From positions 3,605,001 through 3,669,000 of the forward strand of contig NC_134029.1 of assembly GCF_964204645.1 (NCBI RefSeq): a stretch of DNA of 64,000 nt, read 5' to 3'. Position numbers and translations under genes: made by a program. Source of the DNA: Tubulanus polymorphus (lineage: Eukaryota; Nemertea; Palaeonemertea; Tubulaniformes; Tubulanidae). The notes under the pieces are model-generated. The model saw only the letters and a program-made list of their open reading frames with translations. It was not told the DNA's origin and did no database searches. The first letter of the stretch is position 1, and every line of letters starts with the position of its first letter. Positions 5,262 through 60,799 of the stretch are shown one piece after another.

Positions 5262-17407
<12,146 letters not shown>

Positions 17408-18403: not shown

Positions 18404-19829
18404 ATGGATAAAAACCAATCAACATCGGTAGATTTCACTGAAACCTACACGAATTCACAGTTACTCGGTTCAGTGAAGAAAATTCTTGTCAACGAAGCGT
18501 CGCCTTTAATCAGAGACTTCATACACTGCAATCCTGCTGCTGTAGAACAGGACAAATCAGCACAGCAGTCTCAACTCATTAGAGTGATGCAATGGAACCT
18601 GTTAGCTCAAGGTATTTCCTACAATCTGCTGTAGGCCTATGTACTATCATAATGGGAAACCTCAATGCTATTGAGGCAATTGGGGTTTCAATTTATGGCA
18701 AGCAATGATCCACCACCAGGTGTCACTAGGAGTAACTCTGTTTTATGCATTCGATTTCTCCTACATTGCAGTTAAACTCGAATGAATTTTTCTCTTACAT
18801 AAATCAATTAATGAAAATCATACCAATCACTGAGTAGAGTAATGGTGGGTCGGAATTTGGGAGTCTGTAAATGAAGTTAGCTGATAGATTATGAGTTTAT
18901 CTTATATAGGACTTGAATGCTCCGGTGGGATAGCTGGTGTTGAGGATCGCTATTAGCACCACTGGACACTACTCTAAGAGAATGTTTTATGAATTGTAGC
19001 TTTATGCGGTGCCGATGATAACTTTGTGCGATGTCCACCAGAAGCGTTGAAGTGGAAATCGAGAAAATGGAAAATTCTTCGCGAGATTCTCACGTATGAT
19101 CCTGACGTGATCGCTTTACAAGAAGTCGATCATTTTGATTTTCTCGAACGCGCGTTGAATTCGGTCGGCTACTCGGGAACGTTCGAACCGAAGCCCGATT
19201 CACCGTGTCTATACGTCGCGGGTAACGACGGTCCAGACGGTTGCGCTCTGTTTTATAAACGCGATAAATTCGAAGCGGTCGATCGCGCGTTCGTGACGTT
19301 AGCGCCCGATCATCCGATCGCGAACCAGGTGGCGCTCTGTTATAAACTACGAACCGTCGACGACGGCTACGAATTCGTCGTTACGACTACGCACTTCAAA
19401 GCGAAAAACGGTCATGACGCCCTTCGTTTGCTCGAGGCGAAACACGTCGTTAGTTATTTGAAAGAAAATTATGCAGATCTGCCGTTAGTTATCTGCGGTG
19501 ACCTGAATGCCCCGCCATCGGAGGACGCGTATAAATACATGATGAATAACGCGCTACTCGATCTGGATAGCGCGTATATCAAACTTAAAAACGATGGCGC
19601 GGAACCCGATTATACGACGTGGAAAATACGCCAAGAAGGTAAAACAGAGAGAACGTCGTGTAAGACGATCGATTACGTGTTCTATTCGCGCGAACGAATC
19701 GTTATTAAATCGTTGTTGAAAATGTCGACGGATGTTGAAATCGGGCCGGATAGATTACCATCGGTGAAATACCCGTCTGATCACTTCGCATTAGTCACCG
19801 ATCTAGTTATACTATCAAACTCGCTTTGA
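18404..19829 (+). CDS. NOCT: Nocturnin, NADP(H) 2'-phosphatase of the EEP/CCR4 family
   Basis: Nocturnin removes the 2'-phosphate of NADP(H), often rhythmically and in or near mitochondria; it was earlier described as a deadenylase. Exons 18404-18611 and 19000-19829 (208 + 830 nt) give 345 aa. The EEP fold markers are in order: MQWNLLAQ (metal-site Asn), LQEVDH (catalytic Glu), FEPKPDSPCL and GPDGCALFY (nocturnin-type), GDLNAPPSE (Asp and Asn), TIDYVFY and YPSDHFALV (catalytic His). The spacing and the ALKW and RLPS(V/F) motifs fit nocturnin better than CCR4 or Angel. An acceptor at 18371 shows an upstream noncoding exon. AATAAA at 20196. The second exon is conspicuously GC-richer than its surroundings, with CGA/GCG codons. 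No obvious mitochondrial presequence is seen. Confidence 0.94.
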
Positions 19830-33895: not shown

Positions 33896-35155
33896 ATGAC
33901 TGCAAAGCCGGCACCAGTGGAAAGTTATCTAAAACTAGTCGCTAAGACACCTTCTAACGAAGAAGTGATAGACACTTATAATAATTGGACGGGTACTTAT
34001 GACACGGTAAGAGACGTCTGTATTTTGAAGAAAACACATCGAATGAAAGTGAATATTTCATTGGCGTGTCTTTTGCATTCGTAATTAGATAATATAAATG
34101 TATAATAGATGTTAATATGAATTAAAAACACAGTGGCAGTTATTGTCTTCATTTTCAATGAAATTTGATGATCCACAAGCAATGGTAGTGAATAATGTTT
34201 CGTGTATCTTAAATTTAAATTTGTTCATTTTGCAGGAGCTGACCCCGGATAAATATCGTGGACCACCAACTCTAGCAAAAACGGTAGTAAAATACGTATC
34301 GGATAAAAACACACGTATTCTGGACGTGGCCGCTGGCTCTGGGTTATTGGTCGTAGAGGTATTGACAAAAAAATGAAGATTTCATCTATTTGAATAATAT
34401 TTGCTAAATGGAAATTATTTTCTTACTTGTCTTGGTCGACATCATTTAGCTAGGTGACATGTGTTAGAATATTGTATTTCGATTTTCTATAATTTAGCTG
34501 CGGAAATTGGGTTTTGTCGGGCTCTTTGATGGGTTAGACCCCGCTGTAGAGTTGGCTAAAAAAGCAATTGAGAAGAAACTGTATGAAAAGTATTACCACT
34601 TTTTCATAAAACCCGATGAACCGTGCAGTCTAGCTGATGGTAGGCGAATGCGTCTTATTAAAAGACACCCCTGACTTTCGTTTTTTTTGAAATCACGAAA
34701 TGTTCTATTTTCAGGGTCGTACGACCACATAACGTGTTGCGGTGCAATAATTCCTGGCCATATTCACTATACAGGAATTAATGAATTTTTGCGCTTATGT
34801 AAAAAAGGTGAGGGAAAATTCGTTGTACATGTACCAACTATGGACTAAAAAATGTATTCTGTCGTCCATAGTTGTACAAATGATTTTTTATTTGATCGAC
34901 CTTTCTTTACAGAAAAAGAAGAGAGCGATAGGTGTTAGTAATTACATGTATGTATGTACTTAAATATTTTCAGGTGGTTATGTGTTTATAGCTATGAAAG
35001 GTGGTTACATCCAGCCGGACGGACAGTTCCCCGGATTTGATGATCACTTGAAAAGTCTCGTTGATTCCGGCGTCTGTGACGTCGTAGAACGATTTAATTT
35101 CGAAAACTATTTTTTCACTGATGCAGGAGTCTTGCTTGTCTTGCAAAAGAAGTAA
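33896..35155 (+). CDS. METTL27-like (WBSCR27-like) methyltransferase, array copy 1
   Basis: Class I SAM-dependent methyltransferase of the METTL27 family; the substrate is unknown. Exons 33896-34006, 34236-34358, 34498-34639, 34715-34807 and 34974-35155 sum to 651 nt, 216 aa. Landmarks: YNNWTGTYDT (YxxWxxxYD motif of the family), SAM motif I ILDVAAGSGLL, motif II acidic residue in FDGLDPAVELA, CCGAIIPGHIHY and the late GGYVFIAMKGGY strand. Intron phases are 0,0,1,1, shared with every copy in the array. The ATG at 33896 follows an acceptor at 33840, so the 5' UTR is split. AATAAA at 35224. Closest in sequence to copy 2 (EKKLYEKYYHFFIKPDEPCS against EKKLYENYYHYFINPDEPCS). Confidence 0.92.
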
Positions 35156-35275
35156 ATGACTGATAGTCCGAATTTATTCACCAATTTTTGATGTTTTACA
35201 GTTGGTCTTTAAAGTAAACCCAAAATAAAGATGATTTACATATATTTACATATTTCTTGAAGTGTAATACTTATC

Positions 35276-35750
35276 ATGAAACTGAATCCACTTCTATTGC
35301 ATCCGGAATCAATGAACGCTTTAATGCCAGTTTACAATCGGGAAATAGCAGTTTGCGTTAAAGGCACTTATTCTAAAAGGTCGACGGATAGTTTTATCAA
35401 TTGCGGTGTCCCTCAAGGTTCCATCCTGAGCCGCCTGATTTGTTGGAATGTACGACCTTCCTTCATGCTGACAACGCCTCCATACAGATCCAAGTAGAAA
35501 ACGACAACAGCGTGGTCAGAGTGGTTAGCTTAATATAATGGGGTATATTTTCTAAACCTAGAATTTCAAAGTTATCTTTACAAAGCGTGGTTCTCATGAT
35601 TATCCGACATTTATCCAAGATAATCCCTCAAACCCCATCCCGATGGCTTTGTGTTGGACGAAAACTTGTCATTTAGTTGCCACGAAGAGCACCTTAAGAT
35701 TGAAATAAAAAACGGCTCCTCTCGACTCTCGAACTCCAAAGCTTAATCAA
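35276..35750 (+). mobile_element. Remnant of a non-LTR retrotransposon reverse transcriptase
   Basis: The frame SFINCGVPQGSILSRLI matches the conserved GVPQGSxLGPLLF motif of LINE reverse transcriptases. About 45 bp further, in another frame, FHADNASIQIQ corresponds to the catalytic YADD region, here HADN. The piece is short, frameshifted and lacks the catalytic Asp pair, so it is dead. It lies between array copies 1 and 2. Confidence 0.7.
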
Positions 35751-36068
35751 ACCGCACTTTGACCCTGCAATATTCTAAATCATAGTGCTAAAAAGCTTAA
35801 ATTACAGCGGCCAGACAAGTGTATCAGAAAGATAAGTGTATATGTTTTGCAAAATACAATGCACATGGTGACACAGTAAGCGATATGAACATTTAATGAG
35901 ATATTCAGTCGAACACGTGGATGTGAACATAACATATATATGATAAATGATTTAGTTTCTAAATTCGAAGTATTATCTGAAAGATATGTTTATCGTTCTG
36001 GCCCACTTGACCTATGCAGTTTTGTACAATCGCCGAAAACCCCATTTTTTGTGTAAAGGTGCATCAGA

Positions 36069-38077
36069 ATGGACGGGAAGTTGGGGCAGATCATGAAAAT
36101 GGTGTACGACGTTGAATCACCGACTAATGCTGATATCATAAACCACTATAACAACTGGACTGATACATATGAAGAGGTAACATTCTTTTCACATTCACGA
36201 TCGCCCGTGATTAACGCCTTCAATAATCTAGGATCAAGTTACACAGAACTGAAATCTGGACTGTGATACAAAACAACAAACAAAATGCATAATTTCATAA
36301 GTTTGCTAAAATCGTTTGAACGTTCAAATACCATACAAAAAATAAGTTATGCAGAAATGTTTTTCGAATCATCAATTTGCGAATTTTTTTTCGAGGCGCT
36401 TACTGGTCGTCAATCGTCGGAGCTTTAGAAAGACTCAAATTGTTACTATATAATACAGAATGTACACCATGTAATAAGAACAAGCCCACTTGGGACTTAA
36501 GTTGCATCCTTCCGTCCGTCCATCCGTCCGCCCGTCGTCCGTCCGTAGACAGAATCCAGTAATTGTGAGAAGTTTTGAAGACGCCTCAATGGATTGTCCT
36601 CATGAAACAGTATTTGGTTTATACATGTATCAAAAACTGGCCCGCAGAATCAAGATGCCTTGTCCACTGAAATCAGTACATTTTTCACATTGTTGAAGTT
36701 TTCATAAAAATTTTGAAGACGCTTCGATCAACTACTTGATCTTAATGTATATTTATATCCCCCAAGGGCCCTCAGCATAAGAAAATTTGGGTCGATCGGA
36801 CACAAGATGGCTGTCCAGTGACCTTTCTGTGCCCAAAAAGGAAATTTTTTTGGCCTGAATTCCGAGACCTATAGCCTCATAATGATTGCCATTTACCATT
36901 GAAAACTGTGATGGATATTCTTTGGGAAGGTATCGGGTTTTGCGATCAGTCGATTATCTTGATGTTTGATTATCATTAGCGCTGTTAAGGATACATCTCC
37001 TCACATGGAATTGGGGTCACCCAATTTTTATTGTCCTTGCCACGAGGAAGAGTTAAATATTGGCCTACAATATTTCCAACATTGTCTAATATAACACTTG
37101 AACTACAACCTTAAATCTAATAAAAAGAACCCAATAGTTTATCAAACCTGATAAAGGGCGGATTCATTATCAATCTTACCTAAGCCGTTAGTGAATATAC
37201 ATACATATTAAATACTTTGTATTTAGTCGAATGTGGGAATTATTTTTTTTTGTGAATTGTAGGAGATGGGACCGAAGAATTATCGTGGGCCATCAACTCT
37301 AGCAAAAACGATAGTAGAATACGTATCGGATAAAGACACGCGTATTCTGGACGTGGCTGCTGGCTCCGGGTTATTGGTCGTCGAAGTAAAACTGCATTCT
37401 CTCTCCATTGCGATTACGTCTATCTAACTTGAAAAAATATGATAGGTCTCTCTGCAGTTTATTTTCTGTATTTATGTTTCAATGATTTAGCTCAGGAAAT
37501 TGGGTTTTGCCGGATTGTTTGATGGGTTAGACCCCGCTGTAGAGTGGGGGAAAACTGTTATTGAGAAGAAACTGTATGAAAACTATTACCACTACTTCAT
37601 AAACCCCGATGAACCTTGCAGTCTAGCTGATGGTAGGTGAATGAGTCTCATTGAAATGAGTGGATTTTCTTGCTTTCGAACTAGGAACACGCGAGAATGT
37701 ATATTTCCTATTTCTAGAATTGTACGACCACGTAACGTGCTGTGGTGGAATAATCCCGGGCCATATTCCCTTTAAAGGAATTCGTGAAATGTTGCGGCTA
37801 TGTAAAAGAGGTAAACAAAAAGTGGGTGCTAAGACGAGAAAGATCATAATGCGTGAGGGCGTATTTAAAGTTTACTACATTTTTCTACTTTTCAGGTGGT
37901 TATGTGTTTATAGTTATGAAACATAGTTACATCCAGCCGGACGGCCAGTTCCCCGGATTTGATGTCTATTTGAAAAGTCTCGTTGATTCTGGTGTCTGTG
38001 ATCTCGTAGAAAGATCCGTATTCGATCGATATCTTTTTGAAGATCTCGGAATTGTGTTTGTCCTGAAAAAGAAGTAA
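36069..38077 (+). CDS. METTL27-like methyltransferase, array copy 2
   Basis: Exons 36069-36176, 37263-37385, 37491-37632, 37718-37810 and 37896-38077 sum to 648 nt, 215 aa. Same architecture and intron phases as copy 1: YNNWTDTYEE, ILDVAAGSGLLVVE, FDGLDPAVEW, CCGGIIPGHIPFKG, GGYVFIVMKHSYIQPDG. It keeps the SAM-binding Gly-rich loop and the motif II acidic residue, so should bind cofactor. The first intron is long (1086 bp) and contains a CCGT-rich microsatellite and an interspersed repeat. AATAAA at 38158. The last exon carries a 170-codon antisense open frame, which is a shadow. Confidence 0.92.
36478..36910 (+). repeat. Interspersed repeat with CCGT microsatellite in intron 1 of array copy 2
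   Basis: The stretch opens with CCACTTGGGACTTAAGTTGC and a (CCGT)-type run at about 36509-36545, then reads GAAGACGCCTCAATGGATTG and TGGGTCGATCGGACACAAGA. The repeated TTTTGAAGACGC segments at about 36572 and 36711 suggest internal repetition. I judge it an interspersed noncoding repeat from its composition; no terminal structure was found. Confidence 0.35.
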
Positions 38078-38859
38078 ACATGTTATCCAATACATGTCAA
38101 TTTCTATATTTAGGTGGAAATAATAACCCTCAGATTCGGTAGAACCTCTTGAATCAGAATAAAAGTGTACATGTGCATATATATGTATATGTGAAAATTT
38201 CGTATCTTGCATTTTCATCCTTCTGATCCTAATGATTTTCTTCGGCCTATGTGACCTAAATATTCTATTCTTTATGTCTTGCTTTACGTGGCAAAAAGCA
38301 AACGAAAACACGAACGCGTGTACTCTTAAACCGTACGAAGCACGATGAATGAAAACCCGTTCTATATACCAAAGCCGTTTAGACCTTTTCTTCGCTAGGA
38401 ACATTTTTCATAAATCGATTATATGAGAATTGTATTTATGTCAATACAGCAAGTTCTGTATAAGCATGTATTCCGATTCCGATTCCGGACCGGGTTAAGT
38501 CAAGCGTTGTTCGGTTGCAGTATTTCGAAGTATAACGGTAGACAGTTGGGTATTCTTCATTACCCCTCGGCTCTGTCCTTACAATACTTATCAATATCAA
38601 CTAAAACCTAAGCTTACGTGAGAATCTTGCTTAACATATATTTATCCCGGGCAACCAGCTGGTGCAAAAAACCTGTGTCGAGGGTATACAATGAAATAAA
38701 TGCGACCCGGTTCACTTAATTGCTGCCTGTTCCTGCAGTAGTAAGAACCCCAGTTTTAGCGCTCTCTGGCTCGGTATAATCTCCACTCTGTTCGTCAAAA
38801 TTGACCATTCGAAGGGGAGGTGAAAAACCGCTTTGTCCGTATCATACTCGATATTCGAA

Positions 38860-41301
38860 ATGAGCTTACAGTCGGAAACGGTGGATAATTATGAGGTGTT
38901 GTTGAAATCGCCATCGCCTCTGGATGTGGTCGACTTTTACAACAAATGGACCGGTTATGACGAGGTACGTACTACAATTTATTCTGAGGAATTATTGATT
39001 GACCAGAGCATCGTTATCGAAAATAGATGTCTTTTACCTATGCTACCACACCTAAGACCAAATTCAAATTAAGTAATGCCTACCACCATTAAGTGTTTCA
39101 GGGGCGTGGCCAGCCAGTCTTTCTGTATTTTCACGAGCCCAGCCGCGGCAGATAAAGCTAGCTGATAACCGCCCTTAATGTTAAATAACAATCAATGGTC
39201 CTGACGTAGCCCCCTAGTGATATTATTACTATAATCATTATTGTTAAATATGTATAGTATCAATAACTCATTCAGAGTATCTCCCCTTATGGTACAGGCG
39301 CGGCTTAAAGATGTCCTTCTCTACATATGTATGCATTATGTTCGTGTGTTAGTTAGAACTAAAAGTATCATAGTTATGATTATCAATGACGTCGGGAACA
39401 AGACTTCCAGTTCATAGACGGTCAAACGTGTAAAAAGTTACCATTTTCAATGCATTATTCATGATGTTTTAAGAAACTACTATTCAAGTATTCGAAACAA
39501 ATATACTACTTACAAATATACTTTTTATCTTGCAAGATATATATCATTCGTTCGTTCGTTCGTTCGTTCGTTCGTTCGTTCGTTCGTTCGTTCGTTCGTT
39601 CGTTCGTTCGTTCGTTCGTTCGTTCGTTCGTTCGTTCGTTCGTTCGTTCGTTCGTTCGTTCGTTCGTTCGTTCGTTCGTTCGTTCGTTCGTTCGTTCGTT
39701 CGTTCGTTCGTTCGTTCGTTCGTTCGTTCGTTCGTTCGTTCGTTCATTCGTGCGGCGTTAAATGGTCTGGGCATGGCGAAACCCGTATGTTACGCATAAG
39801 CATTGTGTGAACGAGAAATGAATTTTTAACACGAAGGGAGAATTTCTCTCTGTAAATCATACCCGGTATTAAAATTTTGCGTGGAGTACTGCAGTTTTTT
39901 TTTTCAAACACACCGTTCCGATATGGAACTATTCTATTCAGTCGTGAGTATTGAGAAAGCAAAACATGTACCCTATCTATTGTATACTTGTCACACAGCT
40001 TAGCAGTGAAATGAAAAAAATACACAAATGGTGTCCATCCTACCTATTCGATAAACTATGATGGTTCACTTTTTTCGAATATCTTTTGTGATCGAATGAA
40101 ATAAAGTATTTTTGAATTTGAAAAGGCTACCCTAAGCGTCACGCGTGACTACGACTGTATCAACGATGCACCAACTGAATCGAAAAGTGAAAATTTGCTG
40201 TAATGATCAACATCTTATTGCAAATTAGCGTAATGAGCTATACGACTAACGAGTGAGGGAAACACCCCTCCAAAGTCATGGAATAGTGTGGGCTATTTGA
40301 TAAATTACACCCTACTCGACATTGAAATGCAATAACATATGATTCTGTATTGTAGGATGTAAGTACTGTGCACTATCGTGGACCGCCCGTACTGGCAACA
40401 ACGATTCTAAAATATGTATCTGATAAAATCGTGCATATTCTCGACGTGGCTGCTGGATCCGGCTTCTTAGCTTTAGAGGTATAAATGATAGTTCGTGTTC
40501 TCCAGAATAACACGTTATCAGTAAAAATTAAAATGTATATATACGTAATATTCGACAGTTAGAAAAGCTTGGTTATAAGGGATCGATGGATGGATTGGAT
40601 CCCGCGACAGAGTTTGCAAAACAAGCCATTGAAACTGGGCGGTATAAAGACTTCTACTACGATTTCATCACTGAGGAACCATGTAGTATAGCCGAAGGTG
40701 AATATCGTCAATGGGTTGGGTAACTCCTGGATGATCTTACGCATAGATTATTAAATGTTATTCGTATACATTTTCTAGGTTCTTTTGATCACGTGGCCTG
40801 TTGTGGTGGACTGATCCCCGGTCATATCCACTTTACCGGAATCCGTGAACTGTTGCGGTTATGTAAAAAAGGTTTGAACTATTTTTAGTTGCAAATCGTT
40901 GGAATTCGATCCTCAAACTGATTTTGAATTCAAATCTATCTCATTTATCGTCATTAGTGACCTGTTTATAATAACATAAAACCGATGAATATTTATTTTT
41001 ACATATTTTTACATATTTTTACATATGAGTATAATAATTAGATAAGTTGGCCTACATCAATATTTCATAGATTTTTCTCAGTGGAAGATTTGTAAATTAG
41101 GATTTTTTACTTCTTGCAGGCGGTTATGTATTCATTGCCATGCGACACGATTTCATAAACGAGGGAGAACAGCTGTCTGGACTTGACGATTATGTGAAAG
41201 AACTAATCAGCTCCGGGATCTGTAACATTGTTGAACGGTTTGCGTTCGAACGATATTTTTATGAAAATGAAGGACTCGTTATAGTTTTGAAAAAAAACTA
41301 G
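38860..41301 (+). CDS. METTL27-like methyltransferase, array copy 3
   Basis: Exons 38860-38964, 40356-40478, 40559-40697, 40779-40871 and 41120-41301 sum to 642 nt, 213 aa. Landmarks: YNKWTGYDE (one residue shorter than copies 1 and 2), ILDVAAGSGFLALE, MDGLDPATEFA, CCGGLIPGHIHFTG, GGYVFIAMRHDF. Near-identical to copy 5 of the array. The first intron is 1391 bp and holds a 49-unit TTCG tract absent from the copy-5 intron. AATAAA at 41817. Confidence 0.92.
39547..39750. repeat. (TTCG)n microsatellite
   Basis: 49 perfect TTCG units run from 39547 to 39742, followed by TTCA and TTCG. The tract is open in several frames on both strands (SFVR and NERT repeats); those frames are artefacts. It sits in intron 1 of methyltransferase array copy 3. 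Confidence 0.97.
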
Positions 41302-42136
41302 ATGTGAGAAATATTTCAATGAATTATGGCAATTTCGTATTTATATTTTCTTTGATCTACACTCGTTGTTAGTCGGTCAAATCGGTGAATTCTATCAAAA
41401 TCTAAATGGCTAAACTTTCAGTTTCCCAAATTCTCAGCTCGGTATCCGGCCAACTCGTTGGGATATTTACATTCCCAACGCTATACCGAGTATGGCGGAG
41501 TCTACTGGATCTTGCTGCTTATATTCTGAAAACAATTTGTTAAGAAGTAATTATATTTTTATTCATGTATTAAGTTTTAGCTCGATACCTATTCATCTGT
41601 TATTTATTGATACAAATATTTTATCTCTTTAAAACTCTCGATCGTTCGTTTTTGAATACACGTATATCATATAATTATCATGTTTATTGTCGGAAGAACC
41701 AGTATCCTTTATTCCTTATCTCTGACTTCGCTTCGTTTTGAATGGACTCTGTTGGTTCCATTTTGTTCGTCTCAGGTGACTGTGCTGTAATCTAGTTCAC
41801 CGTATTTCAATTTATCAATAAAATAGCGTTATCTTTACAAATTCTCTATTTAGCGAGTTGTAGGTATTTCATTTGCTTTCATTCTGTTGGATCCAAGTTA
41901 AGGAATATGATATTTATACCAAGTGACCCATGAAATTTTCGATTATAAAAGATTCAACTTTTGATAAATGTTTCTGCATGAGAAACAATTGAACTTATGG
42001 CCGCCATATCGAGATATATCATCTGACACTATTATTCATTGATTTATCCGGCCTCGAAGACACGACATCAGTTTGAAATATCTTTTGTGAAGTAAGAATT
42101 TCGTAATCACTGAAAAAGGTTTATATGTGCATAATG

Positions 42137-42475
42137 CAACCTCCCCCGGCAGGGATTCGAACCTGATGGCATCGAGATTGCCACGGTACGAAACCCTGCC
42201 ATAATCGACCGTGTGCGCAGATACATGCGCAGTTCAGATGATGTGATTTTTAGCCAATCAGAAATCCCGTTTTATTTTAGCCCGGGTTTTCCCATTTATA
42301 GTTCTTCCTTGAAATTTGCCTCAACGATTATACAACGAGCAATCTGATTGGTGCCGCCAGTTTTCGTTCGGAAAGCTGCGCATGTACCTGCGCACCCGGT
42401 CTACTGTGGCAGGGGTTCGTGCCGTGGCTGAGTGTAGCGATGCCATCAGGTTCGAGTCCCTGCAGAGGGAGGATG
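42137..42475. mobile_element. Foldback element with tRNA-like arms and 8-bp target duplication
   Basis: Inverted arms of about 135 bp enclose a short core. The left end reads CAACCTCCCCCGGCAGGGAT and the right end mirrors it as CCCTGCAGAGGGAGGATG. Inner matches include GCGCAGATACATGCGCAG and CTGCGCATGTACCTGCGC. An exact 8-bp direct repeat GCATAATG flanks it at 42129-42136 and 42476-42483. The right arm carries TGGCTGAGTGT (A-box-like) and GGTTCGAGTCC (perfect B box), as in tRNA genes, and the left arm carries their mirror. No protein-coding capacity. Confidence 0.8.
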
Positions 42476-42832
42476 GCATAATGGGGCTAGTTTTCATACT
42501 TCAAGAGGAAATAGATTTAGATTTAGTTTTCAATGTAATTTTTATTAGGTTGAGGAGATTCCATCGACAAAGCTAAAAGTATCCCTGAATGATTGTTGTT
42601 ACGGCAGTTAAATGAGTATCAAACAACCCCGAAAATTGCCGTAAACGATGTAATACGCTTGGTTTCTACAGAGACTTTTAGATTCCCATCTATAATGCAA
42701 ATGGACAGAATAGTGACGTAATACACTCAAACGTCCCGCGTTATTGGGAAAACGTGTGACAAGAACTCTCAACTCATCCAAGTCAAATATGTTATTGAAT
42801 TCTTAACTCAAACGATTTATTTCCGCGAAAAA

Positions 42833-43037
42833 AATGGGATTCAAATTGACGACTATCGAAAAAACATAGAATTCAATAAAAAACCGAGTTTTCATCTAAT
42901 TTTATGATTTTTCACTCATCCAAACAATACTTATCTTTGGAATGGGATTCAAATTGACGACTATCGAAAAAAACATAGAATTCAATAAAAAACCGAGTTT
43001 TCATCTAATTTTATGATTTTTCACTCATCCAAACAAT
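42833..43037. repeat. Tandem duplication, period 108 bp
   Basis: AATGGGATTCAAATTGACGA begins both copies, at 42833 and 42941; they are nearly identical, differing by one extra A in a homopolymer. The second copy ends at about 43037. Noncoding and between methyltransferase copy 3 and the pseudogene. Confidence 0.9.
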
Positions 43038-43684
43038 TAGAAAAAAAAATAATCATGTCCCCAGGGCGCTTCCGTAATTTACACCATGTAATAAAAACAA
43101 TGTTTTTTTCTTTTTCATGCAGCACCGATTTACACGGCCACTAGCCTATGCATACGCGTAGCAGTGTAGTGCAGCGTCCGGTCCCCCACCTACTAGATTT
43201 TCCGATCAAAATTAGACTGCCAGAGGCTGAAACGCAAAAATCGCGTTTATTACAGACGTGTGTGTACGCAGTGGGTTATTGCAACTCGAAATGTATACCT
43301 GTTTATCTGGTAAATGGCGAAGACGCCTGGTCTTGACCAAACAAATCGACCTTTCGCAGAAAACTAACCCTTGTTTTCCGTACTGACGGTTGGCGATAAC
43401 TTCGGCAACGAAATTGCTAAATAAAAATTAATTGAATTTCGATTGATAAATTCTGGACTTTCAGGGGCCGGTCTGCGGCGCTTAGCTAATTACACATCGT
43501 ATCACAATAAAGGACTCGAACAGCATGTATTCAACCTTTAATCCAATCGACACAACTGAATCCAATACTTTTGAACAATACCTATAATTCCTATGAACCT
43601 GACCTAACCACAAACTCCGAGTGCATAGAATTCTAAAACTTTTTTTGCTTTTTAAGAGCCTATTTCGTCAAAAATAGCTGATGG

Positions 43685-44175
43685 GCTTACAATCAAACTT
43701 ATCTAAGCCGTCAGTGAATATAGATACATATTACATCCTTTGCTTATCCGAATATTTGCGGAAAATAGAATTGTTTAAACTAATGCTCACAAAAAATTAT
43801 TGTGGACCATCAACTCTAGCAAAAACCATAGCAAAATAAGTATTCTGGACGTGGCCACTGGCTCTGAGATATTGGTCGTCGAAGTAAAACTACATTCTCT
43901 TGTCATTGCGATTGCGTCTATCTAACATGAACAAAAATATTACATCTAGTTTTATTTTTCCTAATTCAGTTCAGGAAATTGGGTTTTGCGGGATTGTTTG
44001 ATGGGTTAGACCCCGCTGTAGAATGGGGCAAAAGGTGATTGAGAAGAAACTGTATGAAAACTATTACCTCTATTTCAAACCCCAATGAACCTTGTATTCT
44101 AACTGATGGGATGTATGCCCTTTTAAAAAATGAGTGGATTCTCTCGCTTTCGAACTCGGAACATGTATTGATGTG
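43685..44175 (+). pseudogene. METTL27-like pseudogene, array position 4
   Basis: Relic of array copy 2. Remnants of exon 2 (about 43796-43883, GGACCATCAACTCTAGCAAA, an internal deletion and an in-frame TAA, then CTGGACGTGGCCACTGGCTC) and exon 3 (about 43978-44106, GATTGTTTGATGGGTTAGAC with frameshifting deletions) are recognisable. Exon 1 is absent, and exons 4 and 5 are deleted: sequence resembling intron 3 of copy 2 passes near 44170 directly into sequence resembling the 3' flank of copy 2. It cannot encode a methyltransferase. Confidence 0.85.
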
Positions 44176-44789
44176 TGATTTTCTTCGAGCTCTGTGGCCT
44201 TAATATTCTCTTCGATTTTTACCCTGCAAAACTAGTAGGTTTGTACTATTTACCTGTACGAAGCACAATGAAAATGAAAACCTGTTCTCTACCAAAGCCG
44301 TCGAGACCTATTCTTCGCTGAAAAAAAATGAGAATTGTACATATAAGATTTGTATCTATGTCAATCCAAAAAGTTTTGTATAAACATGTACAAAGCTTGT
44401 ATTTAATACGTTACGATTCAAGACCGGGTCAAGTCAATTGGTTGTTCGGTTGCAGTATTTCCAAGTAACGATGGACAGTGCAGTATTCTTTCCTACCACT
44501 CTGCTCGTTCATCCTTCAATACTTATCAATGACAACTAAAACGTAGGCATAAACGAGAATCCTGCTTAACATATATTTATCCCGGGCAATCAGCTGGTGC
44601 AAAACCTGTGTCGAGGGTATAATGAAATAAATGCGACCCGGTTCACTTATTTGCTGTCTGTTCCTGCAGTAGTAAGAACCCCAGTTTTAGCGCTCTCTGG
44701 CCCGGCATAATCTCCACTCCGTTCGTCAAAATTGACTATTCTAAGGGGAGGTGAAAAAAGCTTTGTCCGTATCATACTCGATATTCGAA

Positions 44790-46312
44790 ATGAGCTTACA
44801 GTCGGAAACGGTGGATAATTATGAGGTGTTGTTGAAATCACCTTCGCCTCTGGATGTGGTCGACTTTTACAACAAATGGACCGGTTATGACGAGGTACGT
44901 ACATGACGAAAATTCTACAATCAATTCTAGTGGAGTCTAATGATAATTAAAAAAAATCCCCCATCTGGATCGTAATCTCAAACTCTAGCGATTAAACATC
45001 AGTCGTCAAGAAAGATATTAAAAGAATTCGAACGCAGGCCTAAGTTGGGAATATGGATTTTACGACGATATTCTAAGATTAATCGAATTCGCAATTTTTC
45101 TGAAACGCGATAGAAATATGCGGTCCTTGCTTTATCATCGTCGCTGCTGTCAATTTTTGCGTTCGAAAAACCTGAGAATGACGAGCAAAAATCTGTTTTT
45201 CATTTCTTTTGATGCAAAAATCAAGTTTATCAAGCTAGGGACTGAAGAGCTGATTGATATTCGATCAAAACTTATGTTTCGAAAGAGAGCGAAAATTATC
45301 GCAAAGATCGTTATTTGGAAAGTTACACCCGACTCGATATTGAAATAGAATAACATATGATTCTGTATTGTAGGATCTAAGTCCCGTGCACTATCGTGGA
45401 CCGCCCGTGCTGGCAACAACGATTCTAAAATATGTATCCGATAAAATCGTGCATATACTCGACGTGGCTGCTGGATCCGGCTTCTTAGCTTTAGAGGTAT
45501 AAATGATAGTTCGTGTTCTCCAGAGTAACACATTTCTATGTTATCAGTAAAAATTGAAATGTATATACGTAATATTCGACAGTTAGAAAAGCTTGGTTAT
45601 AAGGGATCGATGGATGGATTGGATCCCGCGACAGAGTTTGCAAAACAAGCCATTGAAACTGGACGGTATAAAGACTTCTACTACGATTTCATCACTGAGA
45701 AACCATGTAGTATAGCCGAAGGTGAATATCGTCAATGGGTTGGGTAACTTCTGGATGATCTTACGCATAGATTATTAAATGTTATTCGTATTCATTTTCT
45801 AGGTTCCTTTGATCACGTGGCCTGTTGCGGTGGACTGATCCCCGGTCATATCCACTTTACCGGAATCCGTGAAATGTTGCGGTTATGTAAAAAAGGTTTG
45901 AACTATTTTTAGGTTTTCGGTTGCAAATTGTTGGAATTCGATCCTCAAACTGATTTTGAATTCAAATCTATCTCAATTATCGTCATTAGTGACCTGTTTA
46001 TAATGACATTAAACCGATGAATATCTATTTTTACATATTTTTACATATTTTTACATATGAGTATAATTAGATAAGTTAATTAGATAAGTTGGCCTACATC
46101 AATATTTCATAGATTTTTTACTTCTTGCAGGCGGTTATGTATTCATTGCCATGCGACACGATTTCATAAACGAGGGAGAACAGCTGTCTGGACTTGACGA
46201 TTATGTGAAAGATCTAATCAGCTCCGGGATCTGTAACATTGTTGAACGGTTTGTGTTCGAACGATATTTCTATGAAAATGAAGGACTCGTTATAGTTTTG
46301 AAAAAGAACTAG
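44790..46312 (+). CDS. METTL27-like methyltransferase, array copy 5
   Basis: Exons 44790-44894, 45374-45496, 45583-45721, 45803-45895 and 46131-46312 sum to 642 nt, 213 aa, matching copy 3 exon by exon. The first exon differs from copy 3 at two nucleotides only. Replacements include SPVHYRG for STVHYRG, TEKPCS for TEEPCS, IREMLRL for IRELLRL and FVFERYFYEN for FAFERYFYEN. All cofactor-binding motifs are intact (ILDVAAGSGFLALE). The promoter-proximal 220 bp is duplicated too, so expression may be similar. AATAAA at 47042. Confidence 0.92.
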
Positions 46313-47713
46313 ACGAGAGAAATATTTCAGTAGATAATAAGTATATTTTTCATGATATAAAATATCATTGTATGTGAATAGAGTAGACTCTTATAGTCTT
46401 GAAAAAGTGCGAGAAATATTTTGATAAATTTTGGAATTACGTATGTGTATATTTTCCATGACCTAGACTCCTCGTTTATCGATCAAATCGGTGAATTCTA
46501 CCAATATCTAAATGTAAAACTTTCAATTTCCCCAATTCTCAGCTCGTTATCCGGCCAACTCGTTGAAATATTTACACTACCAACGCCATACCGAGTATGT
46601 CTACTGTATGTTTATGGAAACTGCTTATAGTCTGATTTCAATTTGTTAAGAATGAATTATTTTCATTCATGTATCAAGTTTTAACTTACCTATTAATCTA
46701 TTATTTATTGATATAAATATTTTATCTACTCTTTTGGAGTACATGTATATGGTTGATATAATTATCATGTTTATTGTCGGCAGGACCACGGTATAAGTAC
46801 ATGACGGTGGCCTCTGGTGATAGGATTAAACTTCGTGTCATTCTAATTCGACAGTTAACCTCGCCTAACGCGGCAAACCTTTGGACCTTTGACTAATTTG
46901 GACAAAAACGAAATCATTTTCTGACTTCCAAACGTATCTTTCTTAATTAACTTGGACTTTGTTTCGCTCAAACCAATTGTGTCGGTCCCAGTCTGTCCCA
47001 GTTCGGCGTCTGTGTTGAAGTTCGCTGTACTTCAATTTATCAATAAAATATCATAATCAAATTCTCTATTTAGCGAGTTGTAGGTATTTCATTTGCTTTT
47101 ATTTTATTCAATCAACTTACGATATATCAGAGATATCATTAAAATATGATATACCAGAGTGAACCATGAAATTGACCACTTTGAATTTTTCGATTTTAAA
47201 AGATTCGACGCTTGTTTCCAGACGAGAAACAATTGAACTTATCTCCACCATATCGAGATATATCATCTGACACATAAAATGACAATTTATTGATTTATCC
47301 GGCTTCGAAGACATGAAATCAGTTTGAAACGATTTTTCTTAACTTCTGATTTCGTAATCACTTTGTAAAAGGTCTATTTGCTAGACTGAGAAAAAAACAA
47401 AATATTTCGACCCGTCCTGACCTGACCAGACAACCATGATTACACCATGATGATCAGGTCCTTACCAATGTATTGTATTACGTGGACATTGATCTTGTAA
47501 GGTAGTCATTATTTTCCACCACCCATGAGACGGCAGACAAATTCTCGAAACCCTAGAACATGTGACTGACGTAATCTTAAAATAATCAGATCGAAGTTTG
47601 CCATAGTTCGATAAGCCGCCTGTATATAAGCTACGTATTTTTGAATAATTCATAATTGTCACGATCTAGTCTCATTCTGGTTGCTTATTTGCTTTCGAAA
47701 CATTTCATCAACG

Positions 47714-49033
47714 ATGGCTGAACTTCTTTCGAATAAACTTGATGACTTCATGAACGAAACTCATGTTTTACCGAAACATGACATCATTAATATGTACAAC
47801 CAATGGACCACGACGTATGAAAAGGTAAGTAAATGACGACGTTTAACAATGGTTTTTTATTTCGGTCCGTTTCGGTTTCATCGGTACTTATACGTTAAGT
47901 AGTTCGTTCTGTGAAACGGACTCGATATAACTATTTGTTTTCGATTTATTCAGGAAGTCGGAGAGAATTACGAAGCACCTAACCGCTTGGCAGAAAGTGT
48001 CTGCAGACATGTCCACAATAAGAAAGCATCATTTCTGGATGTCGGAGCGGGCACCGGTCTCTTTGCTGAGGCGGTAAGTTCCTCGCTTTGAATTTGCTTT
48101 TGTTTAAGGTTTTCGTATTAAACACGGAAACATACATGCGTAAAACCTGATGCCTACAAGATTTTAAGTTTAGATTTAGTGTTTTTAGGAGCTAAACAAA
48201 TAACACTCGAAATGCTTCCGTTACAATACTCGGTTGTTGTAAAGACCGTACAAATATTTTTGCAGCTTCTCAAGGCTGGATTCAACGGCCATTTCGACGG
48301 GTTAGACCCAGCGACCGGATTTGCCGCTAAAGCAAAAGAAAGGAAACTTTATTATAACTTCTATCACGAATTCATCACTGAAGAACCTTGCAGTATTCCA
48401 ACAGGTCAGTTATGCATCCGAGAATAAAACTTAATGCGATCGTTTTTATTTTATATATTCATATTTACATCAAAAGTGATATCAATTTGATTTTCAGAAA
48501 CATACGACAATATCGCAGTATGCGGAGCTATAGTACCTGGCCATATTCATTACAACGCTATCGTAGAGCTTCTGCGTATGATTAAGAAAGGTAATTATCC
48601 AATCATATATGTATTCTTCTGGTTTTTCAAAAACTAGATAATTCGATTCAGACACGACGTTACTGCCACGAGGCGCATTGACCGAAAGGTTTAGACAGGC
48701 TTGGCGCAATCTTAAGGTTCAAATCCTTATGGTTTCTTGATATCTTCGATGGTTTTTCTCTTTTTGGAGAGAATATTTCAACTGTCCGACGTTGGACGGT
48801 TCAATTAAGGTCATCTATTGAGGTTGAAATTTTTTAAAAATGAATCCGTTTTTTCAGGTGGTCACATTTTCATCGCGATGCGCGAAGAATATACGAAAAC
48901 GAAGTTCTCGGGAATGGACGAATTTTTAGCCGATCTTGAAAATGCTGGAAAGTGCAAAGTTGTCGAACGATCAACATACACAAATCATTACATCCACTAC
49001 AACGGATTATTACTGGTCATTCAGAAATATTAA
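47714..49033 (+). CDS. METTL27-like methyltransferase, array copy 6 (most diverged)
   Basis: Exons 47714-47824, 47954-48073, 48266-48404, 48498-48590 and 48858-49033 sum to 639 nt, 212 aa. Intron phases equal those of the other copies. Landmarks: YNQWTTTYEK, FLDVGAGTGLFAE (GAGTG in place of AAGSG), FDGLDPATGFA, VCGAIVPGHIHYN (CC of the others is VC), GGHIFIAMREEY. It is the oldest branch of the array by sequence. AATAAA at 49450. Confidence 0.92.
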
Positions 49034-53600: not shown

Positions 53601-56040
53601 GCTATCATAAAAACCCCTAAACTAGTGATTCAATGATAACTATAAGCTCTGTCTGTGATCCTGACGTTTCATCCCTTCTTCAGAGTTTATTCAAAATGAC
53701 AGTAGATAGATACAGATAGTAAGTTTGATAAGCCGCACTGGTAAGCTCTCCTGAAGGGAGATTGATAGAGGTCAGGATCACAGAACTTATATTTATTCAC
53801 TAGGGTTTTTAAGACTGCGACTAAAATCTAAATTAAAACTTCGATACTTAAGCCTGATTTTTACCAAATATTTTGAGCAGGACGAACCATTTGTTTATAT
53901 GCTGGACGATGAATTTGGTAGGTTGAAGGGAAACGATAGATTCAGCGGCATATTTGTCGAGTATTTTGAGTTGGTGGCTGAACATGTTCGTAAAAACTAC
54001 GGCTTGAAATTTCATTACGAGTTGGTGCACAAACCGGGCCTCGATTACGGACGATACGAGAACGGGACGTGGAACGGTGCCGTTGGTGAAATACTATCCG
54101 GTAGATATGAGGTAATGAGCATGAAATGGGTGTTGTTTTCCATTGAAGAAAAACCCACAGTACGAAGTGAGCTAAAAGAGGGCGTTTCGACTCAAATGCT
54201 ATGAGCTTTTGTTAAAATGGCTCTAAAATGGCTCGTGGCGTTCGAGTCGAATCGTCAAAATCCTCGAATAGTTTTACTTCGTATTGGAGGTTTTTTCTTC
54301 AGTTGAATAAGAAATTCGCGTGACTGTGGAAGCCAACACTTTCCCTCAATCTCCCATGAATAGTAAAACGATGGCACTAGTAGTTCACTTATGTAATGAT
54401 GTAAGACTTCGATACGCGAACGGAAATGCTGTAAAACGATACTGCAATCTGCAAAAGAATTTCTACTCGTTAATAGTGAATATTCAAATCAACATCTATG
54501 TTGATTATGGATATTGTATTATGTAATTATGTAATTAAGTTTTAGCGGAGACGCAGAACCGACTTGATTTGAATACGAATATTTTGTGTTTTGATTGTTT
54601 CAGATAGTATTAGCGGCTATAAGTAAAACATATTCGCGAATGGAAGTGATATCGTTCACGCCTGGAATTGTGAGCGACGGTTTAACGTTCATTTACCGAC
54701 CGCATCACGAAGCAACGAACTTCTACTATTCGTTCTTGAAACCACTCGGATATTTCGCCTGGCTCGTCGTCATTTCCGGCATCGCGTTGACCGCATTTAC
54801 GCTACGCATATTCTATAAACTGAATCCAACTCACGAAGAAATCGACGCCGAGCATCATTTTACGATGCGATACTGTTTATGGTACGGCTACACGACGTCT
54901 TTGCGGTTGGGTGCCCCGATGACGCCGACCACTGTCCCGATGCGCTTGTTCACCTTTTTCGTAATGTTTTTCGCTATGGTTGTCATAAGTTCGTACACGG
55001 GAAACATGGCCAGTTTTCTGACCGAGGAAACCTTCCTGGATCAGCTAGATAATTTATCGCAATTAGCGACGCAGACGAAGTTTGCATACGGTTTCGAAGT
55101 AGGAGGTACGGACGACATGTTCTTCGCCAATTCGAAAGATCCAGCTTACAGTAAAATGAACGCACATATGCGTAAACATAACACGACAGTCGAAAGCATC
55201 GAAGCCGGAATCGATAAAGCGATGAACGAAGATTACGTGTTCATAACGCAATCGATCGGTGTCAATTATTTCAAGGGTAAGACCTAGACGAAGCTAGTTA
55301 AGTGGCTGGTAAACAGCTCCCGAATGATCATTTAATTCACCTAAAAGGCGAAATAACTCGTTATCTACCGGTACTTCGGAGATAGCGATTCGTTTAAAAG
55401 AGTTTCACGATTGCTCCAGAAATGCCTTATATTTCCAGCGTTGAAGAAGTACTGTAAACTGAAAATGGGCGAGGGACGGATATCTATACACGAGATTGCG
55501 ATACCGATGGCGAAAGATTCTCCTTACGTAAAACCATTATCGGACGCAGTCAGAGAGATCCGTGGGTCACATCAGAGCAGAGATATAATCAACTAGTAGG
55601 TATAGAAAGAGTTACGGGATCAAAACCACGTGTGTGACTGTCCTGGTATCGCAATGGAAATGTCGTTAGCCTGTTCATTTGAATTTCCTAAATCACTGTT
55701 CTCTATTTGTGCTTATTTCTATAGTTGGTTGCACGGTAAAGATCCATGTTTGAAGACGGAGAATGTCCTACCGAAACAGATCAGCTACGCAAATTTCAGC
55801 GGCGGGTTCATAATGCTCGGTATCGGAGTCGGAATCTCATTTTTAGCGTCGGTTATCAAACGCGTTTTGATACGTTTCAATTTGTGTTCTCGAATCATAC
55901 ACCCCAAACCAGAACGGAATCCTCCGGGTAAAGCGCCGTCGATACGGCGAAATCAAGTGGGCGACGCGATTGAAGTGAGATTACCCACGACGACCCAGCC
56001 TGGTTTAACGGGTAGATTAGAATCGGTCACGAAATTCTAG
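50643..56040 (+). CDS. Divergent ionotropic glutamate receptor subunit
   Basis: Ligand-gated cation channel subunit of the plasma membrane. Exons: 50643-50787, 51008-51202, 51421-51723, 51890-52104, 52325-52381, 52728-52952, 53028-53189, 53445-53555, 53881-54111, 54604-55276, 55439-55595, 55725-56040; they join in phase to 929 aa. Signal peptide about 1-22 (ISILLLFELFWIV), a weakly conserved amino-terminal domain, ligand-binding S1 from about 465 (DEPFVYMLDD, WNGAVGEILSGR), M1 about 598-619, pore loop near 641-651 (WYGYTTSLRLG), M3 with SSYTGNMASFLTEE about 677-690, S2, and M4 about 852-873. The ligand carboxylate-binding Arg aligns with R560 (TYSRMEVI). The acidic residue that binds the ligand amino group in GluA2 (LLES) aligns with Q764 (ITQS), and SYTANLAAF is SYTGNMASF. 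Early exon joins, especially at 51723, are less secure. AATAAA at 56132. Confidence 0.88.
53332..53391. repeat. Perfect 21-bp palindrome flanked by direct repeats
   Basis: CTACGAGCAATTATCTAACTA at 53339-53359 is followed after two bases by its exact complement to 53382. The 9-mer GTGTTATCT stands at 53332-53340 and 53383-53391. It lies in the glutamate receptor intron between the exons ending at 53189 and starting at 53445. Confidence 0.9.
53609..53811. mobile_element. Inverted-repeat element in a glutamate receptor intron
   Basis: AAAACCCCTAAACTAGTGA with GTCTGTGATCCTGAC on the left is mirrored by GTCAGGATCACAGA and TCACTAGGGTTTTT on the right. A noncoding core of about 100 bp lies between. 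It has the shape of a MITE with imperfect arms; no target duplication was found. Confidence 0.6.
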
Positions 56041-56542: not shown

Positions 56543-58693
56543 ATGGATCAAAAAAGATCATTGTTAATCGTCGCAACCTTCGTGGTTTTCTGCTATAATT
56601 ATGGGGTGAGTATTGATGCATTATTGAAACTAGTGAAATCATGTACTGTATTTCCTGAAGTTATGTTTGAATGTCATGTGTAACGTATATCTTATATAGG
56701 AAGCAACTGAAAACACGATTTGTTCCGAAGTTGAACTGCCGACAATCGTAAGATTAGAAGTTTCTCGATTCGAGGTCGGATCCGGCGCGTCCATCATAGT
56801 CGATTTGAACATTCAACGCGGAGGTGACGTTAAAGTGAAATGGTTTCGTCAACAGGAAGAAACGTCGTATCTCGTTGCGGATACAGGTACTTATCTCAGA
56901 ACATATTATTTAGATTTATTATATCTCTAACTCTGATATTTTACCAACTTATACGCAGTTGTACAATGACGGTTGTACAAGTAATTCAAGGGTGGATCCG
57001 ACTTGCGCACTTGCATTGAGTACTGCTCACATTTAGATTTCTTTAGAAATCCTCAAATCAGCAGAGGAGCCAGGGGTCCTTGTACTGAAAACTCCGACGC
57101 GAGGAGAAGCATTCTTTCGCATCTTGATTATGGCCGTAATACAAAGCTGAATAAAAGGAAAAATACCAAAAGTTTGCAAATTCTTTTTCCCGAGTACCGC
57201 TCGAGCAATATGAGTGGTAGGTTGGATCCACCGCTGAACATATATTTGATGGGATCATTATTACACCAGCATTCCAGTTCAATCTGTTTATCCATTACCA
57301 TTTATTCAACTATTTTCCTTCTATTTGCTTCCAGTAAATACGCAATCGTTTGAAATAATTCGAGGCGGAAATCGCCGAGCGAGATTGCACGTGAATTCGG
57401 TTAAATATCGAGACTTGAAAGAGACACATATCCTTGAAATAGCTCCGCGTTCATCGTGCGCCGATGTATCAACGAGAATCATTATCGTTCACAAACAAAC
57501 CTATGTCTCTAATATTCGTCTTCCCACGATAAAAGACGTCAGCGGTAAATTTGTTCTTTCGGAAAACGTCGACAAATCATGGAGACTGTCGGCAACTGTC
57601 GTCGTACACGGAGTGGAGAAGTATTTGGGACGTTACTCGCGGCCGCCACGCATAGGCGCTAATTCCTGGAGAAAGATTATCAACAGAGATGCTTCTCCTG
57701 TCAATAGACGCCACTTTGAACCAAATGGCGCCAAATACAAACACACGAAAGCCGAAGAATGGATTTCCGAATCCAGTTATCAAATTTGGCGTATTTTAGA
57801 TGTTACAAATGCGACTTGGAATGAAGCGGGCATGTACAGTTTTGAGTTCAATCATGGTTTTACCGGGGGATTCAGGTATACAGTGCGTGTTTTTAGTGAA
57901 ATAGAATTACCAACATATCCCGGAATTCTACACGGAATGTATGTGCAGTCGTGTTCCGGTCACGTGCCACACATTGACGGATCGCTGCCGATCAGGAAGA
58001 ACTATGACGACTGTATAATGTGCCGTATTTCCGGGTATCCGAGACCTTATATCCGGTGGTCACGACACAGCACCCAGACTGGTGTCTACCGTCCATTCGC
58101 AGCGAGTGATGTTTCGACGCCCGGCCACTCGTACAGAACCGACACTCAATACATCCAAGGCGACACACGCTATATGGGCCGTTACAAATGCGAAGCTGGG
58201 TACAACAAACCGATCCTAAGTGTTACTTATAAAGTGGCAATTTTTGAACCGATCAAGTTCCTCTTTTCGAGTTCTTCATCGGTGATACTACTGGGTCAAA
58301 GTCAGGTATATATGAGTTAGATACTTTTTTCTATGTTCGTGTATTCGGACTTGACATTTTAATGATTTCTTTTCTATATCTTTACAGATACAATTCGTAT
58401 GCAACGCTTCCGGTGACCCATTGCCAAATATCTCGTTTTATAAAGGCCCCACGTTTTCCGAGCTTCCCGTGGACCATACGACGAAACTACCCTGGTTGCG
58501 AGTCGTTCCGTTTGCAACTAGAGTTTCTATTCAAATACGAAAAGACAGACGAACGATGACGTCAGTGGGTATTATGACCTTGAACTATCCGGGGGACGAG
58601 GTCGTTGGAAGAGGTCAGTGGGATTACAAGTGCGTCGCTTCAAATCACTACGACCGCAAGTTTAGGACGATGTCGATACAGGCAGATTTTTGA
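56543..58693 (+). CDS. Secreted immunoglobulin-domain protein
   Basis: Exons 56543-56605, 56700-56886, 57335-58305 and 58388-58693 sum to 1527 nt, 508 aa. The first exon is a signal peptide (SLLIVATFVVFCYNYG) ending at a junction, as usual for secreted Ig proteins. Immunoglobulin-like landmarks: VKVKWFRQQE in the first domain; CRISGYPRPYIRW paired with GRYKCEAGY in a C2-type domain; FVCNASGDPLPNISFYKG paired with WDYKCVASNHYD in the last domain. The protein ends shortly after (QADF) with no transmembrane segment or GPI signal, so secretion is inferred. A long central stretch (about 100-280) is not recognised. AATAAA overlaps the stop codon at 58693, and another is at 58806. Role unknown; adhesion or immune-type binding are both possible. 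Confidence 0.85.
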
Positions 58694-59894: not shown

Positions 59895-60799
59895 GTAAGG
59901 AATGTAAAATCTAAATGAAATCTGTTCGTAAACTGTCTAGACATTTCAGAATTTTTGATTTAGTCTGAGTTTGACTTATAATCGAAACTAGTCATTTCAT
60001 AGTATAACATAATTTTATTATTTGGCTAAGAATTGTGAAAATCCTTACGCATCACGAGAAATTTCAAAAACGTCATTTTTGCTGCTTCATTTCAAACTAT
60101 TTAGTCCTTACATTCAGGTATAAATGAGTTAAATTTATTTTTCATAACGTATTTTTTAAATAAATGCATCTTTTTGAATCTACAAATCATAAAAGTCTAG
60201 AGAAGTCTTGACTTCGATACACCATGATTGAGTTAGATGACTTACACGCGGCTGTATTCAGTGTGTCTGATCACGTAACAACGCTCGTTATGAAGCCTAC
60301 GGGAATAAAGTACCATTATTCAATCAATTCTGGCGATTCTAGACGAGATAATGTGACAAATATTCCTAGGGATGATACATCCCCCAGATTTATACAGCTA
60401 TTTAAGGACACTTTCGCCTCTGCGCAGATAATACGCATTTTCGCCTAGAACAAGACAGTGATTGAATGAACAGTTAATATCGATTCGATATTGCGACAAA
60501 ACTGCTGGAAGTTAATTATTCAGTATATTGACTAAAGTTGGTTTAGAAATTTAGCATATATCAACTTACCAGGTTACTGCGACTGGCAGGTTTTATTTGA
60601 CTCAACATGAGTTCATTTGGAATTAGTCCATTACCTTCCATCGATGTCATAATAATTCAAATCATTATGTAAATAGTAATTTAATCTGTTATGGTTTCTT
60701 GTAGAAATTAATAACTAATAACTAGTACAAGCTGGGACAAAAATACTCAAAACTAACATCGTTCAGTTTTTCAGGAGCTAAGGTTTGAAATTTGCTACG

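Follow-up and report, generated by a model that had tools for sequence, protein, structure and literature searches.

Why does one stretch of the genome of the nemertean Tubulanus polymorphus carry five neighbouring methyltransferase genes of the METTL27 (WBSCR27) type, and what do their products act on? The stretch, called the window here, is 64 kb long and belongs to contig C5 in a genome of 268 Mb; the gene names C1 to C5 used below are not contig names. The array spans positions 33896–49033 and contains five intact METTL27-like genes and one decayed copy, all on the forward strand. Comparison of gene models across the genome shows that it is one cluster of a larger METTL27-like family expanded in this animal. 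The explanation that we consider probable as a whole is a tandem cluster of METTL27-like genes with a history of duplication and gene conversion, which is held by purifying selection and whose products methylate small molecules and diverge in the lid over the active site.

Five gene models were built from the window sequence with GT-AG splice sites, and such borders were present at all 20 introns. The preliminary description of this locus had listed five intact genes of 212–216 amino acids with a common five-exon layout and intron phases 0,0,1,1, and the models confirmed this, with no internal stop. C1 (33896..35155, 216 amino acids, also backed by homology) and C2 (36069..38077, 215 amino acids) share 70% amino acid identity. 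C3 (38860..41301, 213 amino acids, also matched by Pfam) has a W-to-Y spacing in its lid that is one residue short. C4 lies at 44790..46312 (213 amino acids), and C5 at 47714..49033 (212 amino acids, with a PDB match) is the most divergent of the five. Amino acid identity among the copies ranged from 41% (C4/C5) up to 97% (C3/C4). The S-adenosylmethionine (SAM)-binding loop, motif I (DVAAGSG or DVGAGTG), was intact in all five, as had been claimed.

The pseudogene of that description was also recovered, at 43783..44116 on the forward strand. It is a partial copy of C2 with exon-2-like and exon-3-like stretches only, stop and frame lesions, and 74% DNA identity to the C2 region. When the five proteins were compared with the window by tblastn, 96 matches were obtained; the seven outside modelled exons all fell at 43783–44116, which makes the pseudogene the sole family sequence found in the window outside those exons. 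In a lenient search of 42000–44790, no pseudogene exon 1, 4 or 5 was found above chance.

The METTL27-like identity was upheld by PDB searches, run among the window copies with C1 and C5 only. Mouse METTL27/WBSCR27 (7qcb) was the best match of both, with E values of 7.1e-15 for C1 and 1.8e-15 for C5, far ahead of the next matches (0.017 and 0.0059, respectively). A Pfam scan covered C1, C2, C3 and C5: C1, C3 and C5 passed the cut-off of at least one class I methyltransferase model, and C2 stayed below with an E value of about 1e-3. The lid residues W37 and Y41 (WBSCR27 numbering) are present in all five window copies. In 17 of 17 family genes of the genome, the glycines of motif I were kept, as was the acidic residue after strand 2 (aspartate or glutamate at the position of mouse D99).

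The copies arose by tandem and segmental duplication. Self-blastn and identity profiles delimited an old two-gene tandem duplication on the forward strand, whose first copy (37169..42127) includes exons 2–5 of C2, C3 and flanks, and whose second copy (43692..47380) includes the pseudogene and C4. Because no counterpart of C2 exon 1 was found above chance in 42000–44790, the breakpoint of the block probably lies in C2 intron 1. Identity along the block was 70–87% in the flanks and the pseudogene part. It rose to 95–99% over the promoter–exon 1 stretch of C3/C4 and over exons 2–5 with introns 2–4, the introns being 97–98% identical. The C3/C4 intron 1 was mostly unalignable, with sizes of 1391 and 479. 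Two probable gene-conversion tracts were thus marked in C3, both on the forward strand: promoter and exon 1 (38664..38968, 95–98% identical to C4 and 73–83% just upstream) and exons 2–5 with introns 2–4 (40331..41263, 96–99% identical and 76–87% downstream).

Allelic or assembly duplication could account for C3 and C4 proteins that are 97% identical. We regard it as highly improbable, since the block flanks are just 70–87% identical, intron 1 is mostly unalignable and differs in size, and a pseudogene stands in one block where the other has C2. High-identity tracts amid such flanks indicate conversion after an older duplication, not an allelic or haplotig artefact, and this divergence profile establishes C3 and C4 as real tandem duplicates. 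The history shown by the sequence is that the block of C2 and C3 was duplicated, the C2 half of one copy decayed, and C3 and C4 were later homogenised by gene conversion. Two repeats were seen in this part of the array: (TTCG)n in C3 intron 1 (39547–39751, about 51 copies, 99% matches), with none reported in C4 intron 1, and a 109-bp unit in two tandem copies (42833–43037, 98% matches) between C3 and the pseudogene.

C1 and C2 displayed a related pattern. Their synonymous divergence is saturated in exon 1 and has a dS of 0.39 in exons 2–5, and synonymous differences were higher in exon 1 (p = 1.2e-4), which suggests homogenisation that spared exon 1. Outside the window, the tandem pair c3_692a/c3_692b (stretch L010) has identical exon 2 DNA, 79% identity in exon 1 and 71% in intron 1; another conversion boundary likely lies in that intron. 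A family history of tandem duplication, a pseudogene and gene conversion is ordinary.

The family has at least 17 intact genes in nine places on six contigs: the window five and at least twelve others. Exon-wise search matches were found on contigs C3 (four places), C5, C6, C8, C9 and C10, and the copy count from such searches is a lower bound. The twelve outside models were assembled from nine genome stretches with an exon finder that presupposed the phases and similar exon lengths of the window genes, so their common layout follows in part from the search; the sequence itself adds that each outside place has five exons in the expected order, free of stops and bordered by GT-AG. About ten residues of exon 5 are gone from one outside gene, c8_176.

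None of the window genes was retained as a one-to-one METTL27 ortholog, because the gene on contig C9 scores higher against METTL27 (85 bits, compared with 58–60 for C1 and C5); the window genes are thus METTL27-like paralogs. A mouse METTL27 fragment had no match in the genome at E 0.1, and even the C9-contig gene was missed, which reflects a limit of the exon-wise search. In a tree without bacteria, the C9-contig gene groups with mouse METTL27 (98/93). Bacterial relatives were confirmed at 48 or more loci, of which 16 were examined for lid and GH motifs. When 16 of the 48 listed relatives were added to the tree, mouse METTL27 joined a cyanobacterial protein (89/85) within bacteria, and the C9-contig gene adjoined. 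The C9-contig gene is the best METTL27 candidate, with orthology itself unsettled because the mouse protein shifts in this way. C1–C4 formed one clade in both trees. C5 was nearer to the genes of contigs C3, C6, C8 and C10 without bacteria (80.8/72, weak) and joined C1–C4 with them, so its position depends on the tree. No tandem expansion of METTL27 in animals was seen among the openly licensed papers listed in our search.

Divergence among the copies was concentrated in exon 1. Among the window five, mean pairwise identity was 0.415 in exon 1, 0.515 in exon 5, 0.569 in exon 2, 0.618 in exon 3 and 0.687 in exon 4; over 16 genes, the values for exons 1–5 were 0.297, 0.492, 0.510, 0.578 and 0.414. 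The earlier claim that the copies diverge mostly outside the cofactor motifs therefore stands, and its second part, that divergence gathers around IPGHI, does not, because IPGHI lies in exon 4, the most alike among the five. Exon 1 corresponds to the greater part of an N-terminal segment whose WBSCR27 counterpart orders upon binding of S-adenosylhomocysteine (SAH) and forms much of the substrate site, according to the available part of the structural report, where W37 is proposed to contact the substrate and Y41 the cofactor (PMC9240639). The tryptophan was kept in 14 of 17 genes, with arginine in c3_747b and leucine in c6_053 and c10_933, and the tyrosine position is aromatic (Y/F) in all 17. 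The W-to-Y spacing, counted from the W position whatever its residue, is +3 in nine genes (C3 and C4 included), +4 in seven and +5 in one; mouse METTL27 and all 16 bacterial proteins examined have +4. About four spacing changes are needed on either tree. The IPGHI histidine was kept in 16 of 17 genes and in 15 of the 16 bacterial proteins, and is glutamine in mouse METTL27. As the GH histidine is common in the bacterial relatives, IPGHI is the animal, or local, form of an older motif.

The ratio of nonsynonymous to synonymous divergence (dN/dS) was computed among the window copies by the Nei-Gojobori method over whole genes. It was 0.147 for C3/C4, 0.379 for C1/C2 and 0.18–0.22 for the four pairs of C1 or C2 with C3 or C4. 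dS was saturated in the four pairs with C5, and all six computable pairs were below 1. Under codon model M0, omega was 0.214 for the window five and 0.176 for 16 genes. These values show that the genes are on the whole under purifying selection.

Codon site models (M0, M1a/M2a and M7/M8) were fitted to five gene sets with a custom implementation, in which branch lengths were fixed in proportion from M0. No positive selection at sites was supported for the window five (M1a/M2a p = 1, M7/M8 p = 0.89) or for 16 genes (p = 1 and p = 0.074). Before correction, one of the ten likelihood-ratio tests fell under 0.05 (M7/M8 in the c3_604/692 set, p = 0.037); it fails correction for ten tests. In simulations with 5% of sites at omega 3, selection was detected in 5/5 runs with 16 genes and in 5/12 with five; the negative result therefore carries weight for the family and little for the array by itself. 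Site-specific positive selection among the five copies, named earlier as a test of diversification, thus found no support, with low power for five genes.

A test of two omegas against one, on five gene sets, compared exon 1 with the rest. Exon 1 was higher in two sets, with 0.268 vs 0.158 (p = 0.011) over all 16 genes and 0.413 vs 0.196 (p = 0.022) in the c3/c8 clade. No significant difference was detected in the window five (0.177 vs 0.206, p = 0.73), in C1–C4 (0.243 vs 0.270, p = 0.81) or in the c3_604/692 set (0.319 vs 0.155, p = 0.17). Selection specific to exon 1 was rejected for the window genes by this test. Exon 1 of the window five evolves at a higher rate at every kind of site (scale 1.91 vs 0.91), in keeping with conversion of exons 2–5, and C3/C4 have zero amino acid changes in exon 1. 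Omega near or at 1 was found in single exons with few changes (c3_927a/b exon 1, 1.03; c3_692a/b exon 1, 0.86; c8_176/177 exon 2, 0.87). A conflicting exon 1 tree was not significant (approximately unbiased test, p = 0.307).

These results bear on two rivals. In a neutral or dosage amplification, the copies would share one reaction and an unchanged substrate, and differ in tissue or amount. The low dN/dS of all six computable window pairs, the gene conversion that keeps C3 and C4 97% identical and the lack of supported positive selection at sites agree with it; the roughly four changes of lid spacing, the replacement of the tryptophan in three of 17 genes, the raised exon 1 omega over 16 genes and the value of about 1 in c3_927a/b, a recent pair from elsewhere in the genome, do not. 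We therefore give it a real but minority chance. Adaptive diversification for chemical defence or detoxification, suggested in the preliminary description, is much less probable. Repeated lid remodelling would suit it, as would hints from other animals, namely a WBSCR27-like gene upregulated after metamorphosis in Rapana (PMC4938671) and another on a vent crab's list of genes under positive selection (PMC5446156), both as given in the available parts of those reports. However, the site models gave no supported signal in five or 16 genes, and no biosynthetic or defence gene was recognised among the ten window open reading frames (ORFs) scanned, which leaves the defence-chemistry role without support. 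Substrate diversification among the copies is possible.

What, then, would the enzymes methylate? The portion of the mouse WBSCR27 study available to us describes SAM/SAH binding and an ordering of N-terminal helices upon binding; SAM binding was found, no RNA or protein substrate was found, and a small molecule is left open (PMC9240639). The substrate type of METTL27 is entered as unknown in a table of a July 2026 review, in the text available (PMC13410288), and the gene is deleted in Williams-Beuren syndrome (PMC9240639; PMC13410288). Four of the 48 listed bacterial loci are metabolic: one TauD fusion, and three cyanobacterial cassettes in which the methyltransferase sits in a row between a saccharopine-dehydrogenase-like and a hydrolase-like gene. 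Because a small molecule is left open for WBSCR27 and such loci exist, we infer that small-molecule methylation is favoured, and the window proteins are most likely SAM-dependent small-molecule methyltransferases. Judging from the METTL27 structure and relatives, SAM would probably be bound in the Rossmann core of each enzyme, the N-terminal lid encoded by exon 1 would close over the cofactor, the W/Y motif and the conserved GH(I) histidine would line the active site, and the methyl acceptor would be a small molecule. Since the copies differ mainly in the lid, modest divergence in substrate or expression is likely, if unproven.

Several points weigh against this explanation. A nucleic acid was favoured for WBSCR27 on structural grounds (PMC9240639), 44 of the 48 listed bacterial loci have neither metabolic partner searched for, and the bacterial relatives among the matches listed are just 24–34% identical. 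The window copies are known here from their sequence alone, the gene count is only a lower bound, and the exon finder assumed the window phases and exon lengths. That the family methylates RNA or DNA, as the lid shape of WBSCR27 has suggested for that protein, is unlikely in our view. The lid topology resembles that of RNA/DNA methyltransferases, where a base might be stacked upon by W37 (PMC9240639), but Mariasina et al., in the part of their report available, found no RNA or protein substrate (PMC9240639), and it is not obvious why an invariant nucleic-acid target would call for 17 divergent genes, three of which have W37 replaced.

Related genes are also mentioned in other invertebrates. 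Besides Rapana and the vent crab, WBSCR27/METTL27-like genes were differential in the mantle of a pearl mussel (PMC12652611) and in larval polychaetes (PMC8298564), and one is listed in a prawn antennal-gland proteomics table (PMC5490968). As far as the accessible text of these sources goes, the mentions attest to expression of such genes outside this animal; function is not thereby shown.

Returning to small-molecule methylation, we tentatively propose a more specific form of it, in which the exon 1 lid would be the diversification module of an expanded small-molecule methyltransferase family, as the part that diverges most, with the W-Y element repeatedly re-spaced or its tryptophan lost, and exons 2–5 held or homogenised. 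If this is true, the substrate class of METTL27 would emerge from a comparison of the 17 paralogs. The natural variants, at least 17 in number and in some cases changed at lid residues, form a panel on which activity could be screened and metabolites profiled. The value of the array lies in this panel for the METTL27 substrate question, the expansion as such being ordinary.

The neighbouring genes were examined with Pfam on ten window ORFs, which gave helicase, Exo_endo_phos, glutamate-receptor-channel and Ig domains, and nothing for four. DEAD/Helicase_C pieces at 9701–12646 are presumably from a RecQ/BLM-like helicase, and the Exo_endo_phos enzyme at 18993–19826 is one that we take to be nocturnin-like. 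A glutamate-receptor-like channel (53755–55284) and a weak Ig match (57250–58317) follow. A long ORF without a Pfam match (60782–62584) looks to us like an ankyrin/TRPV-type channel. Elsewhere, intronless rhodopsin-family receptor genes lie a few kb from METTL27-like genes on contigs C8, C10 and C3 (9.27 Mb), at L014:4156-5214, L014:7771-8727, L015:4953-5936, L017:2098-3093 and L012:6407-7375. The three receptors of contig C8 are 64–70% identical to the C10 receptor, and the adjoining methyltransferases are deep paralogs; the C3 receptor is only 30% identical. No receptor match was found in the window or in stretches L009, L010, L011, L013 and L016.

Among known systems, METTL27/WBSCR27 (mouse, PDB 7qcb and 7qcc) is closest to the window copies, and both have the class I Rossmann fold, motif I and the YxxW...Y lid motif. 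The window copies carry IPGHI or VPGHI where the mouse protein has SEGQV, and the W-Y spacing is one residue shorter in C3 and C4. The small-molecule methyltransferases UbiG, UbiE and BioC are weakly similar to the window proteins in the class I core, and membership in these families was rejected, because C1 and C5 score far under the NCBIfam curated cut-offs (for BioC, 30.9 vs 184.95 bits). The bacterial METTL27-like class I methyltransferases (e.g. of Rhodobacteraceae and cyanobacteria) differ from the window genes in having no introns and are 24–34% identical to them; no close bacterial kin appeared among the matches listed, the best identity being 34% in 48 confirmed loci. The TauD fusion among them, a TauD dioxygenase joined to a METTL27-like methyltransferase, is cyanobacterial and comes from a Symploca metagenome-assembled genome (L019:4149-5639); once bacteria are included in the tree, mouse METTL27 has this fusion as its nearest neighbour.

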